NCBI GenBank assembly: GCA_000525675.1
Contig: CP002190.1
Span: 930,001 to 994,000, forward strand
DNA: 64,000 bases
Direction of reading: 5' to 3'
Source of the DNA: Bdellovibrio bacteriovorus W
Lineage (GTDB): Bacteria > Bdellovibrionota > Bdellovibrionia > Bdellovibrionales > Bdellovibrionaceae
In this document: piece after piece, positions 34,485 through 45,748 of the stretch
Layout of the letters: every line of letters begins with the position of its first letter
Numbering within the stretch: the stretch's first letter is position 1
Notes under the pieces: model-generated
What the model was told of the DNA's origin: nothing
What the model saw: only the letters and a program-made list of their open reading frames with translations
The model's database searches: none
Position numbers and translations under genes: made by a program

Positions 34485-35489
34485 TTACAGATCTGTCACA
34501 AAACTGACGTAACACTTGCCAGAATCTGAGACAATAATTGAGAGTAAAGAATGGTTGATGGACGGTTCAAAAGCCGTTACATGTGAAATTGAGCTACAGT
34601 CCAGCGAATTTAATGAGTACGTCCGAGGCGTATTGTCTTCAATAATCACTGTATAGCTTCCACCCTTTTGTAAACCAGTAGCAGTTAGTGTACTAGAGGC
34701 TACAGCCGTTAAAGTGATTGTATTCGCGTACTGGAAGTCTACAGCTCCAGTTGATACTACACTTGAGGCAATAGATCCGGTGATGTTAGTTGATTTTAAT
34801 GGAGACGAAGGCGTGAGAAAACTACTATCGTTTGTAAGCTGGCTTACCTTGCTCGGAATTGAAGGCTTGTTCGTCAGATCGCTGTAACTCCCACTTTTTG
34901 CAACAACGTGAAATGCACTCATATCAGCATCTAATCCATTAACAGCGGATTGTGCAATTTGAATTTGAGCACACGAGAATGTACCAGTCACGGAATTGAA
35001 CTGTAGACTTTCGTTAATTCCACAAGACGATAAATCTGCTTTACGAACGAGAGACTGAGGTGGAACAGAGTCCACCCATTTTGCTTCACCGTCTATTATC
35101 GTTAAAACCTGACCTTCACTCCCGCCGTGAGGAAGGCTTGTGCTTCCTCCCTCGAAATAAATAGGGGTAGGTGAATTTGCGGAAGCAGGGTTTATAAAAA
35201 GAGAATAAATTGCGCCCGCCTTAATCGTGAAGCCGACTCTGTTAGTTCGGAAAAAACGCCATCCATTTTCTTCGTTAACAAAATATAAAGAGGCACGCAT
35301 GCCATCTTGGTCCACTAAATCGAATTGCTGGGAGTTATTCGGAATCACATGGCCCTTTATAGCCAAATACCCGTTTTCAATTTTAGCTCTGTTGTGCGGA
35401 ATCTTCAGCATTTGAACAATAGGGGTAGGTTCGGTACATCCGACCAAAAGCAGGGACGCTAGTAAAATGTTAAATAAATTAGCAAACAT
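34485..35489 (-). CDS. Lipoprotein with phage-tail-fibre-like motifs and C-terminal tip domain
   Basis: 334 residues. Signal peptide ending LLLVGC (lipobox, Cys18). The middle carries GQVLTIIDGEAKWV and SGSYSDLTNKPSIPSKVSQLTNDSSFLT (in two pieces), patterns common in phage tail fibres, where they build trimeric shafts. The C-terminal 110 residues (LQKGGSYTVIIEDNTPRTY, then KCYVSFVTDL) match the C-terminus of the divergent gene at 35591, so the two are paralogues. A surface-exposed trimeric fibre, with the lipid at the membrane and the tip outside, is inferred. Predatory Bdellovibrio are known to use fibre proteins with tail-fibre-like shafts to bind prey. Confidence 0.8.
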   Translation of the reverse strand: MFANLFNILLASLLLVGCTEPTPIVQMLKIPHNRAKIENGYLAIKGHVIPNNSQQFDLVDQDGMRASLYFVNEENGWRFFRTNRVGFTIKAGAIYSLFINPASANSPTPIYFEGGSTSLPHGGSEGQVLTIIDGEAKWVDSVPPQSLVRKADLSSCGINESLQFNSVTGTFSCAQIQIAQSAVNGLDADMSAFHVVAKSGSYSDLTNKPSIPSKVSQLTNDSSFLTPSSPLKSTNITGSIASSVVSTGAVDFQYANTITLTAVASSTLTATGLQKGGSYTVIIEDNTPRTYSLNSLDCSSISHVTAFEPSINHSLLSIIVSDSGKCYVSFVTDL

Positions 35490-35590
35490 TAAACTGTATA
35501 TCGACGTTTTCAGCTCATTTCTTAAATTTTTTTTGAAAAAAGAGTCTAATCTGCTGATTTACCTACATTTAATATATGGAGGTATGATTT

Positions 35591-36409
35591 ATGAAAAAAT
35601 TAGCGATTTTGATGGCTGGGTTAATGTTAACGGGGTGCTTGGGGGAAGAAGATAAAAAGCCTCTTTTAGATCTTAATCCACTCAATGAACGGGTGAGTAA
35701 ACTGGAACAGACGAGTGGTGGAGTGGTTGGTCACCGCCATGATATAAGTGAAATTGACGGGTTAACACTGGATTTTAACAGTTTAACGAATACTCCTGCT
35801 GGTTTTACACATACGGCTCACACTCACGACGTAGCGGATATTACGGGGCTTAGTTTAGAATGGAGTTCGATTAATAATAAACCTTTAACTTTCGCTCCGA
35901 CTGCTCATAATCACGAGATTTCGGAAGTTGAGGGATTGCAGTCGGCTTTAGATTCAAAAGTTAACACGAGCGCTTTAGCTGCTATTGCTGTAACCGGAAA
36001 CTATAGTGATTTGAGCGGTAAACCTGTTATTCCAACGACCGTAAGCGAATTAACAAATGACGCCGGATACTTAACCTCTTCCTCATCGCTCGACGGTGGA
36101 AATGTAATTAACAGCGTCGCTACTTCCGTTAATGCAACTGAGGCAGTTAATTTTACTACCGGGAATACTGCGGCGGCGGCTGCCGGAGCGGAGATTAGCG
36201 TGAGTGGATTAAAAGCGGGCGGGTCGTACTCGATTATAATAGAAGATACTACTGTACGTTTATATTTAATTACAGCTACGCAATGTGCGTCTATTAAATA
36301 TGTTAATAGCGTGGAAAGTAGTGCGGGACCATCCATTTTTACAATTATTGTGAGTGCGAGTTTAAATTGCTACGTAAGTTTCGTTGGGGGTCTATATGGT
36401 CAAGTTTAA
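35591..36409 (+). CDS. Lipoprotein with phage-tail-fibre-like HxH repeats, paralogue of the divergent gene
   Basis: 272 residues; ATG after GGAGGTATGATTT. Lipobox LMLTGC (Cys16). Three His-rich units follow: GHRHDISEIDGL, FTHTAHTHDVADITGL and FAPTAHNHEISEVEGL, separated by SLTNTP- and SINNKP-type turns, then ALDSK and SGKPVIPTTVSELTNDAGYLTSS, all typical of tail-fibre shafts, where HxH pairs can bind metal. The C-terminal domain (GLKAGGSYSIIIEDTTVRLY .. CYVSFVGGL) is shared with the protein at 34485. The following RCC1 gene starts within this one (14-base overlap), so they form an operon. Confidence 0.82.
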   Translation: MKKLAILMAGLMLTGCLGEEDKKPLLDLNPLNERVSKLEQTSGGVVGHRHDISEIDGLTLDFNSLTNTPAGFTHTAHTHDVADITGLSLEWSSINNKPLTFAPTAHNHEISEVEGLQSALDSKVNTSALAAIAVTGNYSDLSGKPVIPTTVSELTNDAGYLTSSSSLDGGNVINSVATSVNATEAVNFTTGNTAAAAAGAEISVSGLKAGGSYSIIIEDTTVRLYLITATQCASIKYVNSVESSAGPSIFTIIVSASLNCYVSFVGGLYGQV

Positions 36410-37606
36410 TATTGGAAATGCCGAGAAGAAAACCATGGTTTATTTACTATTATTACTTTTATTACCTGGAAAAGTTGAAGCTTTCGATTTTTCCGCTCGT
36501 TTATTAACGTCCGTAAAATTTTCGGAATTCACTTCGATTTCGGCAGGCAGCACTCACACTTGCGGGTTAACTGAAGGCGGGAAGGCTTACTGTTGGGGGT
36601 ATGGGGGGGGGGGCGACTGGGGAATGGTGGCACAACTGGCTCTCCGGTTCCGGTAGCAGTGAGTGGTGGTCACAATTTCACTTCAATTTCAGCAGGCGAC
36701 GGTCACACTTGCGGGATTACTGAAGGCGGGAAGGCTTATTGTTGGGGGCTCGGAACTTATGGGCTGCTTGGGAATGGTAGTACGGGTGGCTCTCCGGTTC
36801 CGGTAGCGGTGAGTGGCGGACACACCTTCACATCAATTTCAGCAGGGTTATCTCTCACTTGTGGAATCACTACCGACAAGAAGACTTACTGCTGGGGAAA
36901 AAATCAAAAAGGGGAACTTGGGAATGGTAGTACGGGTGACTCTTCGGTTCCAGTAGCAGTAAGCGGTGGATTAACCTTCACATCAATTTCAGCAGGTCAC
37001 TATCACACTTGTGGGATTGCTGAGGGGGGGGAGGCTTACTGTTGGGGTTATAGATGGAGTGGCGCGCTTGGGGATGGCATTGATAGTGGTTTTTCCGCGG
37101 TTCCGGTAGCGGTAAGCGGTGGACATACCTTTACCTCAATTTCAGTAAGTCAATATCACACTTGCGGGATTGCTACTGGCGGGCAGGCTTACTGTTGGGG
37201 GGGGGGGCAAAAAGGGGAACTTGGGAATGGTAGTACGGGTAACTCTTCGGTTCCAGTAGCAGTAAGCGGTGGATTAACCTTCACATCAATTTCAGCAGGT
37301 CACTACTATCACACTTGTGGGATTGCTGAGGGCGGGAAGGCTTACTGTTGGGGTGAAAGAGAGGGGGGGAAGCTTGGGGATGGCATTGATAGTGGTTTTT
37401 CCGAGGTTCCAGTAGCGGTAAGCGGTGGACATACCTTTACCTCAATTTCAGCAAGCTCCTACTACACTTGTGGGATTGCTGAGGGCGGGAAGGCTTACTG
37501 TTGGGGGGAAAATAATTTTTTCTCTGGGGGACTTGGGGATGGTAGCAGTATAAGCTCATTGGTTCCCATAAAAGTTAAAGGAAAAAGAGCACTTAAACGT
37601 AAATAA
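36396..37606 (+). CDS. Secreted RCC1-repeat protein, frameshifted at an 11-G tract (possibly phase-variable)
   Basis: As given, the frame from 36396 stops at 36656; a second frame entered at the G tract continues to 37606. Joined, the protein has a signal peptide (MVYLLLLLLLPGKVEA) and about seven RCC1-type repeats of 50 residues, each with FTSISAG..HTCGI..GG.AYCWG..LG.G and two Cys. The switch point is the G11 tract at 36603-36613; nine or twelve G would restore the frame. A second G11 tract (37197-37207) is in frame in this copy. RCC1 repeats form a seven-bladed propeller for protein or polysaccharide contact. Translation overlaps the upstream fibre-like lipoprotein gene. Assembly error in the G tract is the alternative. 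Confidence 0.8.
36905..37515. repeat. Internal tandem duplication of about 303 bp in the RCC1 gene
   Basis: Segment beginning CAAAAAGGGGAACTTGGGAATGG at 36905 recurs at 37208 (offset 303), and GATGGCATTGATAGTGG recurs at an offset of 306 because of one 3-base insertion. Identity over long stretches is nearly complete, so two RCC1 units were duplicated recently. Confidence 0.8.
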
Positions 37607-37615
37607 CACCTTTAA

Positions 37616-37648
37616 GCCCCTCAACCTCTGAGGGGCATCTTTTTTTAA
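37616..37648 (+). terminator. Terminator after the RCC1 gene
   Basis: GCCCCTCA and TGAGGGGC, 5-base loop, then ATCTTTTTTT. Confidence 0.85.
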
Positions 37649-41784: not shown

Positions 41785-41908
41785 AGATGGTTCATTTTAA
41801 GGCAATCTCAACTTTAGGCATCTGCAAAATTCAACTAACTTGACGTTGGTCGTTTAGATTAAATTTTTTCCTTTCGTGCTCAAACTTAGTTACTTTCGGC
41901 TTAAGTAT

Positions 41909-44900
41909 ATGAAAAAGTCCTCCGATAGTATCAATATGGACCATAAGCATAGGCACGTTTCATCTTTGTTATTGATATTCATCTCATGTCTTCCGCGATT
42001 CGCGGTGAGAGTCACTAAAATAGGATTGATGTCCGTCACATTTTCGACATTATTAGGCTGCCAAATGGCCCTGGATGTTGAGGAAGTCAAATATTCTGCG
42101 ACCTTGCAAATGACTAAAGGGCGAGCCAAAGCCGACGGGCAGGACCCCGTTCAGTTTATTGTCACGGTTACGAATCTCAATATTCAAAAACCCGCAGCCA
42201 ACGTAGACGTTCAGATTCTGGTCAATGGCGAGAAGTCGACTTCCTATAACATTGTCTGTACTCAAACTGATATAAATGGAAAGTCAGAGTGCGAAGCGAC
42301 TTCAGAGCTCTGGTCTTTAGTATATTTTGAAGCAGATCTCGGTGAAAAAAAGCTCATCAGTGCAAATAAAACAATGATGGAGTTAAGCACAGGCCAGCTC
42401 TATGAGACGGCTGAACGCAAAGAGGCTTTGTTTTTCGATACCAACTCCTACATGGAAGGTTCTGCTCCCGGCTCTTTAGTAGCTTATGCGGACACTCCAC
42501 TTTCTTCCGTAGAAGTTGCCATTGTCATTTTAGATTCAGATAGAAATCCTATTGAAGGAATGAATCCAGTTATTAAGATCGAAGGCCCAGGCGCAATTAA
42601 CTATGAATGCACGCCTTCTGATTCCAATGGGGTGGCGATCTGTAAGGTTTTTACTGAAGTGCCAGGAACGTATGAACTTATAAGTGAAAGTCCACGTTTG
42701 GCAGATCCTTTAGAACTAAAATTTGAATCCCGCACTCGCTCTTGTAACGCACTTCCAAATGCGCATGCTTATGAGATCTGGGGCGAGAATGAGACGGCAG
42801 CTTGGGGACCATGTGTAGTCAGTGGATGTTTTGTTAACTATTCTATGAGTCCAAGTGGAGACTGTGTTGCCGACGTGCGTGTCTGCGAACCGTATCCAAC
42901 AGGTGCGGCTAACGCCACTCAGACTTGGGAGTCCGTAAAGACAGGGGAATGGGGGGGATGTACTATTTCTTCCTGTTCTCTAAATTATACAATGAACGGC
43001 ACGGGGATGGGGAATAGCTGTGATGCTAATACACGGCCAGTGGTTCCAGGCGATTTGCCGCCACACGCTGAAGTGGCAGAGCAAACTTGGGATGGTGAGA
43101 ACTGGGCCCCTCCTTATGTGACTTCGTGCTATTACCCCTACAAAGCGGTTTCGGGTGCTTGTGTGCCATTGGATACTATGCCCAATGCGTTTGTGATCTT
43201 AGACAAAGTTTATCAAAACTTGGATGAGGTGATTTACTCCACGCCTGTGACGATTTCTGGAATTGAAACATACGTGCAAGCGGGTATTACCGGAGCAACG
43301 AGTGCCTTCATCGAAAAGAAGTTCGCAGGAGAAAGTGATTGGTTGCCGTTTAATCCGTTAACGGATGTTTTGCGCAACGGAGATGAATTCAGATTAGGTG
43401 TTTTTAGTTCTGAAAATTTGAATACGACTTCAACGGTTTCATATAGCATTGGAGCAATGGGACCTTTGTCTTGGAGTATCACTACGAGAGACTCCAATCC
43501 ACCGAGTAATTTCTATTTAAGTCATGCGAATAATCAAAGAGAGTTCTTTATCGGTTGGAGCGGGGCCGGATTAGGAAATACGCCGCAAACTTGTGCTGTC
43601 GAATTTCAAGCGACGCCAACGACTTGGACAAGCGTCCTTAGTGGTTTGGATTGTGACAGTCCTTTGGTTACAACATCGACTTACTTACCATCTGCTGCAG
43701 GTTTTTCAACTTATTTCAATGCATCTGGAATTCCTTTGCGCATTCGTCGTTCTGATGGAATGGTCCTAGCATCGTTGGCGCAGAAGCTTCGCTGCTTCCC
43801 AGACCCATATATGCCAAGTGTGGATGATCACGATAGAGATGAAAACTGTAATGGCGTTTGGAATGACGATGGCGAAGTTAAACCCGTCGGTTCAGGACCA
43901 CTGGGAGGATTCTTCAGTATCGTTGAACCATCGCCAGTCACCCAGCCATTAATTACTTTGAGCATCACTTGTCCTGTAGATTTAGCAGGAGAGCCAATTT
44001 TGGTAGCCTACCAAGAGACGAATCCACCGACAAATTGGGAAGCCTGTGGAGCGACGAAGACGATGGTTCTATCTGGCGATGGAACTCATACGGTTTATGT
44101 ACGATTTAAAGACTCTAACAATAATATGACTGATGTTTTAAGCCAGACGATTATTTATGATTCGTCCTCTTATGTAAACACGAATGGAAACTTTTTTATC
44201 AATGATGGATATCCATATACAAACAACGAATCCGTGAACTTGAATATCTTCTGTCCAGCAAATCTTGATAATGGGATTGTTGAATACGCGCTTGGGGTAT
44301 CGTCCCCGCCGGGAAATCCTGCCAATGCTAACGATTGGAGCCCGTGTGTTCCGACCGAGGCACACTCTTTAGTTGGTGCAGATGGTGTCAAAGAACTATA
44401 TATGCGATTCAAAGGGGACGAAGACACTCTGACGCCTTCAGTGGCGGCATCGATCATTCTCGACAAGAACCCGCCGATCGCGACGATTAACTATGCCGAT
44501 GGATGGAGAACGCAGGCGGAGATTGCTGTCACTGTGTCGGCTTCAGATGCTCTTTCTGGATTGGAGCGTTGCGAGCTACAGATTTCACAGGCATCAGTTT
44601 CTTCGGGAACAGTGGGAACCTTTACGCCATGGTCAACGATGAGCACAGCGTGCTCTCCGATATCCATTAATGGAGTCAGCGGAGCCGCTTATAAGTTCCG
44701 ATTCCGTGCCACAGATAAAGCGGGAAATGTGAGTACATGGATCGAACCATCGAGCATTGCCAAGATTAATATGGAGGCTCCTTTTGGAGGAAGTATCAGT
44801 CATTTTAATAGCGTTCAAACAACGACGCCGGTTACAGTGAAAGTGGATCGTGGTCTAGATTCTTACTCTGGAATGAGTAATTCCGCAGGGGACTATCTAC

Positions 44901-45748
44901 TTTCAGTTTCCTCAGCAATTTTGGACCCGATCACTTTAGCATGTGGAACTTATGGTGCTTTTGTAGATGCGAACGTTACAGAGAGCCCAGCGGCTACTCA
45001 GTACACTTTCGCAGGTACTCAAGGGTACTGCTATAAATTTAGATATCAAGTTCGAAACTCTGTAGGCTCAACCGTCAGTTACACTTCAACTGATATAACT
45101 AAAATTAATTTTACTTACGCTTGGAATATCGGAGCCTATGGGGCTTGTCAGGGTGGAACGGGAACTTGGCAGTATGGTAACTGGGGCGCTTGCACCGGCG
45201 GAACAGGTGTTTGGGTGTACTCATCGTGGACGGGTTGTTCTAAATCTTGCGGCGGTGGAACTCAAACAAGAACCGCGAGCTGCAGCATCAACCCAAACAC
45301 GGCTGTCGAGATTCGTTCAGCGACTTGTAATAAAGTCTCTTTGAGTGGCGTGCAAAATAGAACTGTGGTTTGTCGCCGCAGTGACGGAGCAACAGTGGCG
45401 GATAGTTTCTGTGCTGGAACAAAAGCCGTTACTCAGCAAAGCTGTACACCGACGAGTGATAGCGTTTGTGGGACAGTGACGACTTCGCGCAGTTGCACTA
45501 ATAACTCAGTTTCAGTCTGTGGAAATCAAGCAGCGCTTCAGCAGAGTTGTAATACCCAATTGTGTTGTGCGACGAGTGGGACTTCTAATCTGTGCCCTGG
45601 CGTGAGTTTTAGTATCTGTAGTCAGTACTCGAGTTGTTCTAGTTATGGGGGCAGATGTGCTTCTGGTTCCTCAGCTATGGTGGGATACACGGGCACTTGT
45701 ACTGGAGGGAAGTGGGGCGGAACTGTATATCAATGTCGCTGTAACTAA
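41909..45748 (+). CDS. Large Cys-rich surface lipoprotein with Big-1-like and thrombospondin-like modules
   Basis: 1279 residues. The start is the ATG giving MKKSSDSINMDH; upstream GTG and downstream ATGs are possible. A hydrophobic stretch ends in TLLGC, a lipobox. Next come two Big-1 (invasin-like) domains (PVQFIVTVTNLNIQKPAANVD; then VAIVILDSDRNPIEG), three W/Cys modules (for example TQTWESVKTGEWGGC), Fn3/Big-like strands with repeated IDLDKNPP-type turns, and a C-terminal Cys-rich part whose WTGCSKSCGGGTQTRTASC is a thrombospondin type 1 repeat core. DHDRDENCNG recalls the metal-binding MopE motif. An adhesin for cell or prey contact is inferred. Confidence 0.82.
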   Translation: MKKSSDSINMDHKHRHVSSLLLIFISCLPRFAVRVTKIGLMSVTFSTLLGCQMALDVEEVKYSATLQMTKGRAKADGQDPVQFIVTVTNLNIQKPAANVDVQILVNGEKSTSYNIVCTQTDINGKSECEATSELWSLVYFEADLGEKKLISANKTMMELSTGQLYETAERKEALFFDTNSYMEGSAPGSLVAYADTPLSSVEVAIVILDSDRNPIEGMNPVIKIEGPGAINYECTPSDSNGVAICKVFTEVPGTYELISESPRLADPLELKFESRTRSCNALPNAHAYEIWGENETAAWGPCVVSGCFVNYSMSPSGDCVADVRVCEPYPTGAANATQTWESVKTGEWGGCTISSCSLNYTMNGTGMGNSCDANTRPVVPGDLPPHAEVAEQTWDGENWAPPYVTSCYYPYKAVSGACVPLDTMPNAFVILDKVYQNLDEVIYSTPVTISGIETYVQAGITGATSAFIEKKFAGESDWLPFNPLTDVLRNGDEFRLGVFSSENLNTTSTVSYSIGAMGPLSWSITTRDSNPPSNFYLSHANNQREFFIGWSGAGLGNTPQTCAVEFQATPTTWTSVLSGLDCDSPLVTTSTYLPSAAGFSTYFNASGIPLRIRRSDGMVLASLAQKLRCFPDPYMPSVDDHDRDENCNGVWNDDGEVKPVGSGPLGGFFSIVEPSPVTQPLITLSITCPVDLAGEPILVAYQETNPPTNWEACGATKTMVLSGDGTHTVYVRFKDSNNNMTDVLSQTIIYDSSSYVNTNGNFFINDGYPYTNNESVNLNIFCPANLDNGIVEYALGVSSPPGNPANANDWSPCVPTEAHSLVGADGVKELYMRFKGDEDTLTPSVAASIILDKNPPIATINYADGWRTQAEIAVTVSASDALSGLERCELQISQASVSSGTVGTFTPWSTMSTACSPISINGVSGAAYKFRFRATDKAGNVSTWIEPSSIAKINMEAPFGGSISHFNSVQTTTPVTVKVDRGLDSYSGMSNSAGDYLLSVSSAILDPITLACGTYGAFVDANVTESPAATQYTFAGTQGYCYKFRYQVRNSVGSTVSYTSTDITKINFTYAWNIGAYGACQGGTGTWQYGNWGACTGGTGVWVYSSWTGCSKSCGGGTQTRTASCSINPNTAVEIRSATCNKVSLSGVQNRTVVCRRSDGATVADSFCAGTKAVTQQSCTPTSDSVCGTVTTSRSCTNNSVSVCGNQAALQQSCNTQLCCATSGTSNLCPGVSFSICSQYSSCSSYGGRCASGSSAMVGYTGTCTGGKWGGTVYQCRCN

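Follow-up and report, generated by a model that had tools for sequence, protein, structure and literature searches.

Paired fibre and RCC1 genes of Bdellovibrio bacteriovorus W as a candidate unit of a proposed two-part fibre system in Bdellovibrionota

Introduction

How Bdellovibrio recognizes its range of prey is an open question; the account published so far invokes fibres that differ in the tips fused to them. In Bdellovibrio bacteriovorus W, two short fibre-like lipoproteins are read away from each other, and one of them is followed by an overlapping gene for an RCC1-type propeller. The locus raises the question of whether a fibre and its recognition head could be encoded by separate genes. 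We analyzed a stretch of 64,000 nucleotides of this genome (contig CP002190.1, positions 930,001 to 994,000), here called the window, together with the loci of related bacteria that encode the same fibre tip.

Results

Coordinates in the window are as follows.

34485..35489, minus strand: fibre A, a lipoprotein of 334 aa with signal peptide and lipobox LVGC
34488..34823, minus strand: tip domain of fibre A, by sequence match to the tip of B and to the tip profile
35591..36409, plus strand: fibre B, a lipoprotein of 272 aa with lipobox LTGC; stop codon at 36407-36409
35729..35971, plus strand: PTR/HxH shaft of fibre B with three HxH units
36074..36406, plus strand: tip domain of fibre B, a predicted beta-sandwich resembling phage tail-fibre tips (AlphaFold, Foldseek)
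36396..37606, plus strand: RCC1 partner gene, encoding a signal peptide and then RCC1-type repeats, in two frames as assembled
36486..36533, plus strand: predicted mature N-terminus of the RCC1 protein, the candidate docking segment (FDFSARLLTSVKFSEF)
36603..36613, plus strand: first G11 tract, which throws the two RCC1 parts out of frame
37197..37207, plus strand: second G11 tract in the RCC1 gene, in frame as assembled
37616..37636, plus strand: terminator-like stem-loop and T run that close the B-RCC1 unit

The initial annotation had described two divergent lipoproteins that share a C-terminal domain, and both points held. A gap of ~100 bp separates A and B, and their C-terminal parts are 43% identical over residues 96 to 268 of B (E = 1.9e-33), a region that includes a tip domain of ~108 aa. 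The three HxH units ascribed to one protein are indeed found in B, which matches the Pfam family PF12789 ("Phage tail repeat like"; E = 4e-8, exceeding the curated cut-off), phage tail PHROGs, and a phage tail collar fibre of known structure (9d93, E = 9e-11). A tail-fibre shaft had been proposed for both proteins; these matches bear it out for B, and in A, which has no Pfam match, the shaft is recognized solely by a motif common to the two (SYSDLTNKPSIP...VSQLTND). The signal peptide and lipobox of A are followed by a unique N-terminal region of ~100 aa (no clear relative in 66 genomes), the short shaft motif SYSDL..KPxIP..LTND, and the C-terminal tip. The sole PHROG common to A and B is phrog_17509 (E = 7e-4 for A). 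Among genome contigs, the 11 matches to full-length B, from Mesonia and ten MAG contigs of Bacteroidales/Bacteroidia, fell largely on the shaft repeats, not on the tip, and were set aside. A simple promoter scan returned fewer sites than were found in shuffled sequences.

The tip domain is widespread. A profile of 15 sequences located it at 77 places in 38 of the 66 genomes of the family, and with a wider profile 61 of the 291 genomes of the phylum, from 30 genera, proved to carry it. In about 70 fibres, true MATs included, it forms the very C-terminus (tail of 0 to 4 aa). One fibre protein (L082) carries the tip twice, internally and terminally (G034:C19:346546-346854 and 345292-345609). The tip profile matched no Pfam family, no relative was confirmed among IMG/VR viral contigs, and weak matches to an anti-tumor lectin among PDB sequences (E = 0.06 and up) were rejected. 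AlphaFold predicts a beta-sandwich for the tip of B (pLDDT 76.6, pTM 0.69); the model of another tip, from locus L142, is very confident (most of residues 10 to 110 above 90). The solved folds closest to the tip models are the phage capsid spike 9ny6 (E = 2.5e-3 and 1.2e-4) and the tailspike 7rej (E = 0.018), and the closest viral models found with Foldseek include many tail-fibre proteins. Because the closest folds are those of phage spike, tailspike, and tail-fibre proteins, the tip is, to judge from the models, a fibre tip common to bacteria of Bdellovibrionota.

A link to the MAT fibres of Bdellovibrio, also put forward by the initial annotation, is upheld. Tip-ending proteins in relatives are ~500 to 2000 aa long, many of them begin with the MAT N-terminal domain, and the same tip ends MATs that bear the TYQGR N-domain. 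However, A and B fall outside the N-terminal definition of MATs: the hallmark of these fibres, a conserved beta-rich domain of ~130 aa after the signal peptide, is absent from both, and a profile of this domain, which recovers bona fide MATs at E < 1e-20, gives A and B values of 0.07-0.09 in a tiny database. Since they are without the MAT N-terminal domain, A and B are best classified from their sequences as MAT-like fibres with a predicted lipid anchor, not as MATs.

The main new result lies in the neighbourhood of the tip-bearing fibre genes, where a secreted partner is typically encoded downstream. We scored as a partner any same-strand ORF with a signal peptide whose start lies −120 to +60 nt from the fibre stop. 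Such an ORF follows 47 of the 77 tip loci and 6 of 40 control loci, which encode MATs ending in S74 (Fisher test, P = 1.7e-6); a start at or before +5 nt is seen at 39 of 77 and 2 of 40 loci, respectively. Fibre and partner genes typically overlap or abut. Outside the family, such an ORF is present at 16 of 20 tip loci that were picked, blind to their neighbours, from the phylum's other families; in addition, the heuristic overlooked an ORF at −19 (L289), and at L287 an ORF, with the segment SFRSNVGFWK, starts at +142. Within the family, the heuristic overlooked four partners visible by eye (L142, the window's RCC1 protein, L180, and L186), at least 3 of the 47 called partners resemble membrane or periplasmic enzymes (L153, L154, and L087), and ~30 of the 77 tips, that of A among these, are without a partner by this measure. 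On these gene arrangements, the pairing of a tip-bearing fibre with a partner encoded directly downstream is well supported. The RCC1 protein, named earlier as a possible partner of B, is strongly supported in that role by the conserved pairing in relatives. A term search of the main text of the MAT account (PMC10769870) returned no mention of a downstream partner.

At three loci (L155:4819-5949, L169:5012-6019, and L188:5157-6200), tip fibres are followed by similar cytosolic proteins that end in PWYxxVxLFRQxxFGxW; that of L155 has no match in Pfam. We take these proteins to recall OGT-like glycosyltransferases, and the three fibres are perhaps glycosylated.

The folds of the partners are unrelated (Laminin_G_3 [LamG], RCC1, NHL, DUF5122/Rax2, Kelch, TSP1, Big_2 with PA14, and DUF285), and some partners exceed 1000 aa. 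At L182, in a genome of the same genus taken to be that of B. bacteriovorus HD100 from its 13 S74 matches, the number published for it, an NHL partner lies immediately downstream of a tip at 688,002-688,319. Common to them is a mature N-terminus that is poor in acidic residues, rich in F, W, and M, and often xxGFWK-like (FRxNxGFWK-like), examples being FRSNVGFWK, FRANIGFWQ, FRNTLGFWG, GGGFWQKR, and QMFNMGAFWKRK. Compared with the remaining secreted ORFs at these loci, the partners have fewer D/E residues per 14 aa of the mature N-terminus (0.30 versus 1.27, P about 1e-5) and more F/W/M (2.5 versus 1.2, P about 1e-5). A motif trained on the family ranks the partners from other families above controls (held-out AUC 0.88, P = 8e-7). 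On the tip tree, partner class changes 9 times, where the minimum possible is 4 and the shuffled mean is 18.2, and none of 200 shuffles is as low. Partners are thus kept within clades yet also swapped, as when RCC1 and DUF5122 partners occur within one 100/98 clade.

Seven units have RCC1 partners, and the window's genome contains two of these. The second unit of this genome (L159, 843000-862000; 851770) comprises a tip fibre and then an RCC1 protein of 1079 aa with a Tat signal; RCC1 matches there run on to about 858733, in a further frame of ~1086 aa. The signals of the partners of L167, L186, and L159 are Tat-like, with twin arginines, rather than Sec. Elsewhere in the window, an ORF of 1290 aa (41876-45748) with a lipobox-like start has a TSP1-like, Cys-rich C-terminal part (GGTGTWQYGNWGACTGGTGVWVYSSW) and recalls the TSP1 partner of L158.

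The initial annotation had the tip itself recognizing prey. Receptor binding would then fall to the tip, a role already suggested for other MAT tips, and the protein encoded downstream would be an adhesin that is secreted separately and only co-expressed with the fibre. Known MAT tips do bind glycans directly (Bd2439, PMC10769870), and some tip fibres have no neighbouring partner. However, neither the tight overlap with a variable partner nor the N-terminal bias common to otherwise unrelated partners would be expected of proteins that act alone, and we regard a tip that serves as the head as unlikely. That the tip so often goes with a secreted binding protein, and a variable one, better fits a docking platform, so that the tip is better read, from these sequence patterns, as a mount for the partner. 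Alternatively, the downstream protein might help in folding or export, its N-terminus touching the tip during assembly only. Contact through the N-terminus fits this role, and gp38 of phage T4 is a chaperone for the folding of gp37 (PMC12892980, PMC6957217). But one would expect such a helper to keep the same fold, and the diversity of the partners, which have many binding folds and in some cases more than 1000 aa, makes a helper role quite improbable.

The RCC1 gene starts at an ATG at 36396, its first 14 nt lying within the end of the B gene. Translation by overlap had been proposed for this protein and is consistent with this start, although the ORF first listed for it (36593-37606) is merely its downstream part, without a signal peptide, because the gene begins at 36396 and its first part, running to ~36613, is broken from the second at the G11 tract. 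The product is an RCC1-like propeller with about seven repeats (PF00415, E = 2e-43 in 7 stretches; WD40_RLD, E = 2e-50), which are near-identical in places (204 nt, 88%). Of the five runs of 9 or more G in the 3.0-Mb genome, two lie inside this gene, and the other three are intergenic or in a doubtful ORF. None of 24 RCC1 loci from relatives has 8 or more G in a row, so enrichment in G tracts is not general among RCC1 partners. The G11 tracts would fit slipped-strand phase variation, with sequencing error or decay as alternatives.

Decay might extend to the whole cassette, with the RCC1 gene a pseudogene, A an orphan copy, and the pairing a relic. The frame break at the G11 tract would agree with this, as would fibre A, which is without a partner, and the N-terminus of the RCC1 protein, which matches the partner motif weakly (1.26, between the 75th and 90th percentiles of controls). 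On the other hand, the remaining frame is open and contains seven RCC1 stretches, and long G runs are sites of slippage and of sequencing errors. We consider decay of the cassette a serious contender that is nevertheless on the unlikely side; it can be true of the window at the same time as docking of partners on fibre tips is true of relatives.

Discussion

We propose that Bdellovibrionota have a widespread fibre system in two parts, with B and the RCC1 protein as one of its units, in which a socket in the fibre tip takes the N-terminal plug of the partner, and we hold this reading to be probable, with some reserve. The first gene would encode a trimeric phage-like fibre, in the window the short lipoprotein B, with the C-terminal domain as a terminal socket. 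The second gene, which overlaps the first, would encode a secreted binding protein, in the window the RCC1 propeller, whose short, acid-poor, aromatic mature N-terminus would be the plug seated in the socket. If the plug is so seated, the propeller would be displayed at the fibre tip, where it would touch prey or another surface. Binding heads would be swappable between units, with plug and socket constant. A, which has this tip but lacks a partner, would be an additional fibre; the RCC1 head may serve it too, or A and B may mix. In a single-chain read-through model of the L142 tip and the partner N-terminus, the partner segment is undocked (pLDDT ~50), in a monomer with a signal-peptide linker that makes for a weak test. 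We view as rather doubtful an extended version, in which docking is general in Bdellovibrionota and the RCC1 head is also switched on and off by slippage at the G11 tracts, varying the recognition head across the population.

If many separately encoded heads do fit a common socket, the recognition repertoire would widen with the fibre unchanged, and a role would be found for many secreted lectins and propeller proteins of Bdellovibrionota that are so far unexplained.

Several known systems resemble parts of this arrangement. The MAT fibres of Bdellovibrio bacteriovorus (PMC10769870) are phage-like, come from the same genus, and have the tip domain in common with A and B, which differ from them as short lipoproteins that lack the N-terminal domain. 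The shaft repeat of B, with its HxH units, is shared with phage PTR/HxH tail fibres (PF12789; 9d93 gp4), whereas B is anchored as a bacterial lipoprotein and ends in a different tip; in gp37 of phage T4, histidines like those of HxH hold iron in the trimer (PMC6957217). The match of the B shaft to the R2-type pyocin fibre is weak (E = 0.05). The folds closest to the tip, 9ny6 (the capsid spike of Pseudomonas phage Pa223) and 7rej (TSP4 of phage CBA120), are 14-17% identical to it in sequence, and function is not transferable at this distance. In phages T2, S16, and PP01, too, the fibre gene is followed by that of a binding protein, the adhesin. These gp37-gp38 pairs, with no sequence relation found to the proteins described here, combine a fibre with a separately made adhesin at the tip, and gp38 of T2-type phages binds the gp37 fibre through its N-terminus (PMC12892980); in Bdellovibrionota, the corresponding docking is what we infer. 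Unlike gp38, the partners of Bdellovibrionota are secreted proteins of many folds, in which a short mature N-terminal segment would replace the attachment domain.
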